Shown here piece by piece: positions 3,878 through 6,294 of a stretch of 64,000 nt of DNA. Origin of the DNA: Fimbriimonadaceae bacterium (GTDB lineage: Bacteria > Armatimonadota > Fimbriimonadia > Fimbriimonadales > Fimbriimonadaceae); the NCBI GenBank assembly GCA_026129685.1, contig JAHCHO010000002.1:186001-250000 (forward strand), in the 5' to 3' direction. Below the pieces are notes generated by a model. It searched no databases. It worked only from the letters and a program-made list of their open reading frames with translations, and was not told the origin of the DNA. The position numbers were made by a program, and so were the translations under genes. The first letter of the stretch is position 1; the number at the start of each line of letters is the position of its first letter.

Positions 3878-5296
3878 TCACTCGGGAAGTCCGAGCCGCC
3901 GACGCACCGTCGCCAGCGTGTCCGCGTCGCCTGGGTTAAGGTCCGGCCGGCGACGCACCACGTGCGCCTTGGCGACCTTCAGACCGCACCGGTGCCGGGT
4001 TGAGGGCCAGACCTCTTCGACCGCGATTTCGTAGACCCACTCGGGAAGCACCGCGAGCACGGGACCGGACCGCTCGACCGCGTTGTTTCGAACATACCGA
4101 TCGATGAGGTCGCGTTCGGACTCCGGAAGTCCCTGGGCGGTTTTCGCGAACGGCGTCGGCTGGTCACCCGACCAGACCCCGAAAGTCGGTAACTCGTACC
4201 GGCCCGCGCCGCGCTGGGCATAGAGCAGGACGGCGCAGACCGTCACCGGTTCGCTGCGCCACGTTTGCCAAGCCGGACGCGCCCCGTAGGCCGCGTCGGC
4301 TCGCTTCAGGATCAAGCCGCACGCGCCGAGTCCCCGAGCATGCGCTCGCCGCGCCTCGAGCCCCCCCGGGGCTTCCTCGATCAGATCGGGGCATCGCAAC
4401 GGCTCCCGAACGAGCCCGCGCAACCGAGCGCGCCGAAGCGACAGGGGGAACGCCCGCAAGTCCTCCCCTGCCTCGAAAAGTGCGTCGACCACCACCATGT
4501 CCCTTCCGTCCGGCGAGAGGACCCCTTCCAGCACCGTCCCCGGAGGCAGGAGCAGGAGCGCGCTCATCAGGGCCGACGACGTGACGGCGACCTGGTGGAA
4601 ATCCTCGCTCCAGCAGAACGTCCCCTCCGCGTCGCGGACCGCCTGAATCCGCCGGCCTGGCCACAGGTAGTCGGCGACCTGGCCGCCGCCATCCCCGGAG
4701 TAGGGGACGATCCTGGCGAACGGCAACGGACCGAACGCCGCATCGGTCGCTCCCTCGAAAACCCCGCTCCAACCGGGCGCGGAGCGTGATCCCGCCATCA
4801 GCCAACGAGCGACCGAGACCCGACTCACGGATCGGACCTCCGCGATCGCTTCCGCGAGGTGGTCGATCCCAATCCCCAACCGTCCACCCAGAAGCCGTTT
4901 GAAGTATGGCCACCGCGCGGACGGATCGAGGGCCGCCAGCAGATGCAGCGCGCCTCCAAGCGAAGAGCCTCCTTGCAGGATCGCCAACCCATCCGCCAGA
5001 TCGGGCGCGCGTTCGCCCGACGCGGTGCCCAGGAGGCGGGACAGGCCTTCGGCGGTGTCGTCCGCCCCGCGCAGAGCCTCCGAGAAGAGCCAGTCCGGCA
5101 ACCCCGCACGATCCCGCACCTCGTCCACGAGCGCCCCGCGCGTGAACCGTGAACGCCATGGAGCGACCAGCCACCGGACGGCGGCGGCGGCGTCCGCATC
5201 GCTCGCCCCTTCAAAGTAGGCCCGCCAAGCCACGACGCGACGCGCGTCGTCGGGGGCGGCCTCGTAAGCCTCGACCGCTTCTGCGAACCGATTCAA
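3878..5296 (-). CDS. catalytically degenerate ATP-dependent DNA ligase homologue
   Basis: The 472-residue protein aligns by eye over its whole length with the 'ligase-associated' ATP-dependent DNA ligases that travel with an MBL-fold exonuclease. It keeps the N-terminal helical domain, the DALFEAGEDLRAFPLSLRRARL segment of motif IV in outline, and the OB-fold part (VLLYAQRG, FGVW, RYVRNN, VEEVWPSTRHRCGL). Catalytic motifs are eroded. Motif I, normally EWKWDGIR, reads DYLWPGRR, so the adenylated Lys is Leu and the Asp is Pro. Motif III DGE reads EGV. Motif V reads CGLILKR instead of EGVMLKR. The WWKWK block is WQTWRS. The frame is open and normal in length, so this is a pseudoenzyme rather than a decayed gene. 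It overlaps the exonuclease by 4 nt (ATGA) and is translated second. Confidence 0.8.
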   Translation of the reverse strand: MNRFAEAVEAYEAAPDDARRVVAWRAYFEGASDADAAAAVRWLVAPWRSRFTRGALVDEVRDRAGLPDWLFSEALRGADDTAEGLSRLLGTASGERAPDLADGLAILQGGSSLGGALHLLAALDPSARWPYFKRLLGGRLGIGIDHLAEAIAEVRSVSRVSVARWLMAGSRSAPGWSGVFEGATDAAFGPLPFARIVPYSGDGGGQVADYLWPGRRIQAVRDAEGTFCWSEDFHQVAVTSSALMSALLLLPPGTVLEGVLSPDGRDMVVVDALFEAGEDLRAFPLSLRRARLRGLVREPLRCPDLIEEAPGGLEARRAHARGLGACGLILKRADAAYGARPAWQTWRSEPVTVCAVLLYAQRGAGRYELPTFGVWSGDQPTPFAKTAQGLPESERDLIDRYVRNNAVERSGPVLAVLPEWVYEIAVEEVWPSTRHRCGLKVAKAHVVRRRPDLNPGDADTLATVRRRLGLPE

Positions 5297-6294
5297 CCGG
5301 TGCCCTCCTCCTCAGACCCGAAGGGCGTCTCGAGCGGGGCCGCGTCGAGTCCTTGTTCCCTCAGGTAGCGGGCGACGAGTTTGGTGAACCCGTGGGTCGG
5401 CCGCACCCTCTCCGCCCCCGATTCCCGCACCGCACCGAGCAACGCCGGCCAGTCCACGTGGTCGCTGATAACGAACCCCATGTCGGCTTCGAGCCGTCGC
5501 CGCGCCCCGCGTAACGCCATCCAACCCGAGGCGAACGCGGTCGAGAAGGAACGGAATCGCCGCATCCAAGACGTCCCCTCGACTCCCGGCGGCGCGATCA
5601 CGAGGGCACGGGTCCAATCCGTGTCGAGCGGAGCGTTCGCCACTGGGGTCGCAAGGGGCAGAACAACGCCCGCTTCCCGGTAGGCGTCCGTCATCGTGGC
5701 GACCGCGTCGTGAAGGAAGACCGGACCGATGCCAGGATCGACGCCCCCGAGAAGCCGTTGCGCCTTCCCGAGCGAATAGCCCATCAGGATGCTCGCCCGT
5801 CCGGCCGACCGGTTCGCTCGCCACCAAGCGTTGATCTTCGCGAACTCTGCCCCTGCGTCGGGCCAACGATACAGCGGCGACCCGAACGTGCACTCGGTCA
5901 CGAGCGTGTGGCACCGCACGGGCTCGAACGACCGCACCGTCGGGTCCGGGGCCGTCTTGTAGTCCCCCGTCACGACCCATACCTCCCCCCCGTACTCGAC
6001 GCGCACCTGGGCCGAACCGAGAATGTGCCCCGCCGGATGGAGCGACACGCGAACGCCGCGAAGCGTGCGCGCCTCGCCGTACTCGACCGGCGTCACGTTC
6101 GTCGCGGGTCCGAGGCGCAACCGAAGTACCCCCGCCCCTTCCCGCGAGCAGAGGTACCGTCGCGAACCGCGCCGCGCGTGGTCGCCGTGCGCGTGCGTGA
6201 CGATGGCCCGCTCCACCGCCCGCCACGGGTCGATGTGGAAGTCGCCCGCCTCGCAGTAGAGGCCGTCCGGGGTCAACCGCAACAAATCGGCCAT
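5293..6294 (-). CDS. ligase-associated DNA exonuclease (MBL-fold, beta-CASP type)
   Basis: A 333-residue metallo-beta-lactamase-fold nuclease. THAHGDHAR near residue 37 is the HxHxDH metal motif; LHPAGHILGS near 85, VVTGDYK near 105, the ECTFG segment near 130 and the closing SDHVDWPALL and PTHG motifs near 285-305 complete the set, so this partner looks intact. Family members process DNA 3' ends and are encoded with an ATP-dependent ligase and often an Lhr helicase; no helicase is next to it here. The open frame extends upstream, but homology begins at MADLLRLTPDGLYCEAG, so the ATG at 6294 is chosen; TATACT lies 8 nt upstream of it and no Shine-Dalgarno is seen. The ligase-like gene follows with an ATGA overlap. 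Confidence 0.88.
   Translation of the reverse strand: MADLLRLTPDGLYCEAGDFHIDPWRAVERAIVTHAHGDHARRGSRRYLCSREGAGVLRLRLGPATNVTPVEYGEARTLRGVRVSLHPAGHILGSAQVRVEYGGEVWVVTGDYKTAPDPTVRSFEPVRCHTLVTECTFGSPLYRWPDAGAEFAKINAWWRANRSAGRASILMGYSLGKAQRLLGGVDPGIGPVFLHDAVATMTDAYREAGVVLPLATPVANAPLDTDWTRALVIAPPGVEGTSWMRRFRSFSTAFASGWMALRGARRRLEADMGFVISDHVDWPALLGAVRESGAERVRPTHGFTKLVARYLREQGLDAAPLETPFGSEEEGTG

Follow-up and report, generated by a model that had tools for sequence, protein, structure and literature searches.

How a DNA ligase gene can persist apparently stripped of the means to perform ligase chemistry is the question raised by a reading frame in a Fimbriimonadaceae genome (G000; 3.94 Mb, 99% complete, 18 contigs). 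The stretch of DNA analysed here (the window) is 64,000 nucleotides long, and all coordinates given for it below are on the minus strand. The gene in question (3878-5296) has a TTG start and specifies a 472-residue protein that profile matches, alignment and a predicted fold identify as a homologue of LigB-type (TIGR04120/PRK09247) ATP-dependent DNA ligases. It is the second member of a two-gene unit, the first being a gene with an ATG start for a MBL/beta-CASP ligase-associated exonuclease (TIGR04122; 5293-6294). The TTG codon overlaps the exonuclease stop in the four nucleotides TTGA (5293-5296), bearing out the claim of the sequence-only reading that an intact frame is coupled to an exonuclease gene. 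The pair stands isolated between a convergent LemA-like gene (named by eye) and a divergent gene. A consensus search returned no promoter or terminator match at the locus, and such a search is expected to find few here. As to composition, the exonuclease and the ligase homologue (3878-6294) stand apart from most neighboring genes in their unusually low lysine content (about 1.1-1.2%) and in being arginine-rich.

The two genes fare differently against the profiles of their families. The exonuclease scores 448.9 bits against a TIGR04122 cut-off of 325, and its metal-site motifs are present. The ligase homologue reaches 173.8 bits against a cut-off of 400 for TIGR04120 and 192 against 543 for PRK09247; its matches are to ligase models only, and a Pfam search of the protein gave no match. 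A three-domain architecture, homology over the full length and the exonuclease neighbor place it in the LigB-type family by descent. The low score, LWPG in place of KxDG and the alteration of motifs III to VI set it outside the active TIGR04120 ligases.

The extent of the loss was assessed in a MAFFT alignment with exonuclease-linked ligases, using 84 catalytic relatives as reference. In the nucleotidyl-transfer domain (residues ~196-348; 4253-4711), motif I reads ADYLWPGRR where the relatives have [AV]EWKWDGIR (ADYLWPGRRIQ, 4643-4675), lysine being replaced by leucine at residue 211 and aspartate by proline at residue 213. Motif III is VLEGV instead of VLDGE (4520-4534), motif IV ACGLILK instead of xEGLMLK (CGLILK, 4304-4321; Glu to Cys) and motif V WQTWR instead of WWKWK (4256-4270). 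The Y-GVGR stretch reads ACGLILKRADAAYGA--, the GR pair ahead of motif V being gone, and 28 residues are missing between motifs III and IIIa. Motif VI, in the OB domain, is RRRPDL for RWRxDK (RxRxDK in its general form; 3938-3955). Altogether the protein has lost the lysine and aspartate of motif I, the glutamates of motifs III and IV, both motif V lysines and the motif VI lysine. The lysine, aspartate and glycine of motif I and the glutamates of motifs III and IV are invariant among the 84 relatives, as is the aspartate of the motif III DGE, its glycine occurring in 83. The motif readings originally made from the sequence (DYLWPGRR, EGV, CGLILKR, WQTWRS) were thus correct, except that CGLILKR, labelled motif V at the time, is motif IV in the usual numbering, WWKWK being motif V. 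Given the established chemistry of ligases, loss of the residues that charge the enzyme with AMP strongly implies that this pseudo-ligase would be unable to self-adenylate, as first proposed.

Could the protein be a working ligase with its lysine elsewhere? One account (PMC10211241) allows that catalytic residues may have shifted position in certain pseudoenzymes. Against this idea, a scan of the whole protein found no KxDG, although a relocated copy had been named as the finding that would overturn the pseudo-ligase interpretation; the pocket has also lost the residues that would work with the lysine, and lysine constitutes only about 1% of the protein. We consider a displaced lysine highly improbable. 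A frameshift concealing motif I was ruled out because the alignment crosses the motif without a gap.

The helical DNA-binding domain (DNA_ligase_A_N-like, residues ~1-195; 4712-5296) was delimited from predicted helices H2-H167 and alignment with the corresponding domain of catalytic relatives, and the C-terminal OB-fold domain (residues ~349-472; 3881-4252) from predicted strands E351-E449. An AlphaFold2 model (pLDDT 86.7, pTM 0.71), built from an alignment of 33 sequences and leaning on catalytic ligase homologues, predicts that the three-domain ligase fold is retained; it is matched best in fold by archaeal ligases and by human LIG1 on nicked DNA (Z ~20-22, rmsd ~5 A over 460 residues). With the frame and the predicted fold kept and the catalytic motifs lost, the protein is a candidate pseudoenzyme. 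The initial suggestion that the N-terminal and OB-fold regions are kept holds for the predicted fold and fails for the sequence: 19 of 41 conserved columns survive in the N-terminal domain and 34 of 57 in the OB domain, compared with 27 of 57 in the nucleotidyl-transfer domain. Nor are losses concentrated at the active site (15 of 27 active-site columns versus 61 of 128 other conserved columns, p 0.30).

Whether close relatives share the loss had been proposed as a check; they do not. Both congeners (G001 and G002, of the phylum Armatimonadota, deposited as Fimbriimonadaceae bacterium and "Chthonomonas sp. UBA2387") have a normal ligase with EWKWDG beside the exonuclease, which rules out a genus-wide loss of the lysine, and KxDG is kept in 66 of 66 exonuclease-linked ligases from other bacteria. 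The exonuclease scores above cut-off in 19 of 85 genomes of the family, and a phylum-wide search added four; in all 23 of these Armatimonadota genomes, including the 19, a ligase-family gene accompanies it (in G008 the pair is split across a contig end). Degenerate ligases were found in five of the 19 Fimbriimonadaceae: G000, G074 (KWNG), G079 (KRRG), G081 (KWTG) and G073. The last encodes a homologue of just 340 residues (L180:6603-7625, plus strand) from which the nucleotidyl-transfer domain has been cleanly removed, leaving the DNA-binding domain fused to the OB domain in a single frame next to an intact exonuclease. G189, from another Armatimonadota family, shows a different pattern of damage, with KWEG, EGLMLR and WRIWK present and motif VI lost. 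In Planctomycetota (the phylum of Limnoglobus), G870 carries EPARDG (Lys to Ala), EGE, QGLLLR and WVWG with the exonuclease adjoining (ligase at L227:2110-3738, minus strand). In its relative G841 the corresponding locus encodes a ligase that is catalytic by its motifs (L228:1670-3340, minus strand), the exonucleases being 87% and the ligases ~70% identical. In G870 the losses do fall preferentially on active-site columns (13 of 27 versus 32 of 128 others, p 0.017). None of the seven degenerate copies contains a stop or a frameshift, either of which had been named as a sign of plain decay. The count is a lower bound, because the surveys used score cut-offs and the G189 protein scores above the cut-off.

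Other candidates were rejected. The five Fimbriimonadaceae genomes with a degenerate ligase hold no second TIGR04120 gene, and a second catalytic copy in G000 was ruled out, only LigD and the pseudo-ligase having been found. Low-scoring Gemmatimonadota matches (300-350 bits) proved to be KYDG ligases of another subfamily. Separately, contig C112 of the planctomycete G830 contains a 210-residue frame (L229:1987-2616, minus strand) with a complete ligase OB domain (PF04679), motif VI intact, and no nucleotidyl-transfer domain; its first 80 residues resemble, by eye, a fragment of 5-formyltetrahydrofolate cyclo-ligase.

Common to all seven degenerate ligases is the absence of the motif VI lysine and of the GR pair; in each, one or more of the motif V lysines is missing too. 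Four (G074, G079, G081 and G189) retain the motif I lysine and have lost the aspartate, motif V or motif VI instead, so that inactivity is a less secure conclusion for these four than for G000, G073 and G870. This retention is one of two points in favor of some residual or altered nucleotide chemistry, such as step 3 sealing of pre-adenylated nicks or sensing of AppDNA and abortive ligation products. The other is that ATP-dependent ligases mutated at the lysine can seal nicks that are already adenylated. Yet motifs III, IV and V contribute to the AMP pocket too, and the G000 protein has lost all three along with the 28-residue piece; G073 lacks the entire domain. Such chemistry appears improbable.

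In the phylogeny of the exonuclease, G000 groups with the catalytic congeners (support 100/98). The remaining four cases from the family fall together in a clade (100/99) nested in a catalytic group. A single origin of the Fimbriimonadaceae pseudo-ligases occurs in 0 of 200 bootstrap trees and is ruled out by this tree. A tree of the two outer ligase domains gave one origin in 16% of bootstraps; it was not used for placement because its branches are extreme (6.2 for G000 and 2.1-3.8 for the other cases, against a median of 0.59). Counting G189, ligase chemistry would thus appear, from the motifs, to have been lost in about four separate lineages, with the exonuclease kept in each. Recurrence of the same kind of loss in independent genomes also bears on whether the G000 gene might be a sequencing or assembly artefact or come from a chimaeric bin. 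In favor of this, the assembly comprises 18 contigs and may be of metagenomic origin; on the other side, the gene sits unbroken within a 498-kb contig beside its usual partner, and the exonuclease groups with those of the congeners. An artefact is scarcely credible.

The exonuclease was said at the outset to look active, and none of the seven cases has a damaged exonuclease: of the 58 near-invariant columns, G000 and four of the other cases retain every one, G081 retains 56 and G870 54. The rest of the repair cluster, which is widespread in bacteria and whose role is stated to be unknown (PMC10140301), is less constant. Among 24 exonuclease-ligase genomes, 21 have the helicase (TIGR04121) and 20 the phosphoesterase PdeM (TIGR04123); the four-member pseudo-ligase clade has both. 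Neither was found in G000, where the best matches reach 118.8 bits against a cut-off of 850 for the DEXH/Lhr helicase and 29 bits against 150 for PdeM, and G189 likewise lacks both. The congener G002 retains the two genes on contigs apart from the ligase-exonuclease pair. LigD is encoded about 20 kb from the pseudo-ligase in G000. Since no LigD-like match is listed for the four-member clade, loss of ligase chemistry is no simple consequence of having LigD.

Estimates of selection, which had been called for, gave a divided answer. Pairwise dN/dS between G000 and G002 is 0.57 (0.44-0.72) for the ligase and ~0.23 for the exonuclease; between G870 and G841 the values are 0.50 (0.40-0.65) and ~0.30. 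Changes polarised with outgroups number 105 versus 19 for G000 (184 unclear) and 48 versus 9 for G870 (many unclear). Apportioning them on the assumption of equal dS per branch, with dS near saturation, yields a branch dN/dS of ~0.7-0.95 for the G000 pseudo-ligase and ~0.6-0.85 for G870. The pairwise value is therefore below 1 and the branch value near neutral: selection on the pseudo-ligase branches is strongly relaxed, and close to neutral in G000. As all three domains are similarly relaxed, there is no clear sign of special protection of DNA-binding surfaces. An IQ-TREE codon model gave 0.09 for the ligase and 0.03 for the exonuclease within the four-member clade; the model was saturated, at ~2-10 changes per codon on each branch, and was not used.

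The high branch dN/dS makes slow decay, caught before the first stop, the main rival explanation. Cluster partners and ligase chemistry would have been lost, leaving the ligase gene to drift and only the exonuclease under selection. Absence of helicase and PdeM from a genome 99% complete fits this scenario, as do the broad loss of conserved columns across all domains and the approach of dN/dS to 1. Several features speak against it. Seven degenerate copies in about four lineages are free of stops and frameshifts. Gaps relative to the catalytic sister (11 in G000 versus G002, five in G870) are all whole-codon, an outcome with a neutral chance of ~(1/3)^11 for G000, and neutral simulations put the probability of no stop at ~0.0004 for G000 (0.6 substitutions per site) and 0.05-0.11 for the younger G870. 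The four-member clade has retained the gene over a long divergence, its members being separated by 0.8-1.1 changes per site on the exonuclease tree. Finally, GC content by codon position in the G000 gene (0.75/0.55/0.80) is coding-like and near the values of neighboring genes. On balance, we regard decay as a serious but unlikely explanation.

The reading we favor, with a probability of roughly 0.6, is that a LigB-type ligase has turned pseudoenzyme and is probably kept as a DNA-binding, non-catalytic partner of the putatively co-transcribed MBL exonuclease. Independent, similar losses in other bacteria suggest that the "ligase" does something in addition to joining DNA, and we infer that this further job is to partner the exonuclease. 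Counted against the partner reading are the high dN/dS of the pseudo-ligase, the like relaxation of its three domains and the lack of active-site bias in its losses. The nuclease-plus-scaffold arrangement put forward in the sequence-only reading stands to the extent that recurrence in about four lineages fits it better than a one-off decay; fast nonsynonymous change and relaxation of all domains weaken it and leave decay some room.

A broader proposal, whose chances we judge to be even, is that the ligase of this cluster may be a conserved non-ligating clamp or loader of the exonuclease. Already on the reading we favor, the exonuclease would need the ligase protein as a clamp or platform at DNA breaks, apart from any sealing, the helical DNA-binding and OB domains closing around the duplex. 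Sealing would then be an additional activity, dispensable where another ligase can seal (LigD here) or where sealing is unwanted; the catalytic site would drift freely, and the binding role would retain the gene. On the broader proposal, lineages past the need for sealing might repeatedly produce pseudo-ligases, down to a DNA-binding-plus-OB "mini-clamp" without a catalytic domain. In G000, where helicase and phosphoesterase are also lost, the result would be a two-component nuclease-plus-clamp. The platform mechanism is supported by the constant pairing of the two genes, the approximately four losses with the exonuclease kept, the G073 deletion sparing the outer domains, known exonuclease-ligase fusions and the precedent of human LIG4 and Artemis.

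The LigB-type family itself is already known. The pseudo-ligase shares with the "cisplatin damage response" ligases (TIGR04120/PRK09247) three-domain homology and a TIGR04122 exonuclease directly upstream; it differs from the helicase (Lhr)-ligase-exonuclease-phosphoesterase cluster in lacking the motif I lysine and an intact pocket, and G000 further lacks the helicase and the phosphoesterase. In the fusions of Opitutus terrae and Antarctic Dry Valley metagenomes (PMC10140301) the same two components are physically joined, whereas here they are separate, and loss of ligase activity is not reported for the fusions. Human DNA ligase IV likewise works beside an MBL-fold nuclease (PMC3664939; PMC9638927; PMC10858965): its DNA-binding domain binds Artemis (PMC3664939), and an inactive form still promotes repair (PMC9638927), demonstrating a non-catalytic role. 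However, the active site of LIG4 is natural and its inactive form engineered, and subfamily and pathway differ. The closest published parallel is noncanonical prokaryotic PolX (PMC9226535), a bacterial repair family in which substitutions and deletions abolished the synthetic activity and a nuclease was kept. In PolX a single protein carries the nuclease as one of its domains, and activity was assayed; in the present case the nuclease is the product of a separate gene, known from its sequence. A search of the open-access literature turned up no description of a bacterial pseudo-DNA-ligase or of the recurrent non-catalytic form.

Repeated natural loss of ligase chemistry beside a retained exonuclease marks the latter as the member of the pair that cells continue to need, and suggests a role for the ligase protein beyond sealing. 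The planctomycetes G870 and G841, with ligases ~70% identical, one dead and the other catalytic as judged from their motifs, amount to a natural experiment and, together with G073, provide ready test objects. A non-catalytic role of the pseudo-ligase would parallel, in bacteria, that of human ligase IV.
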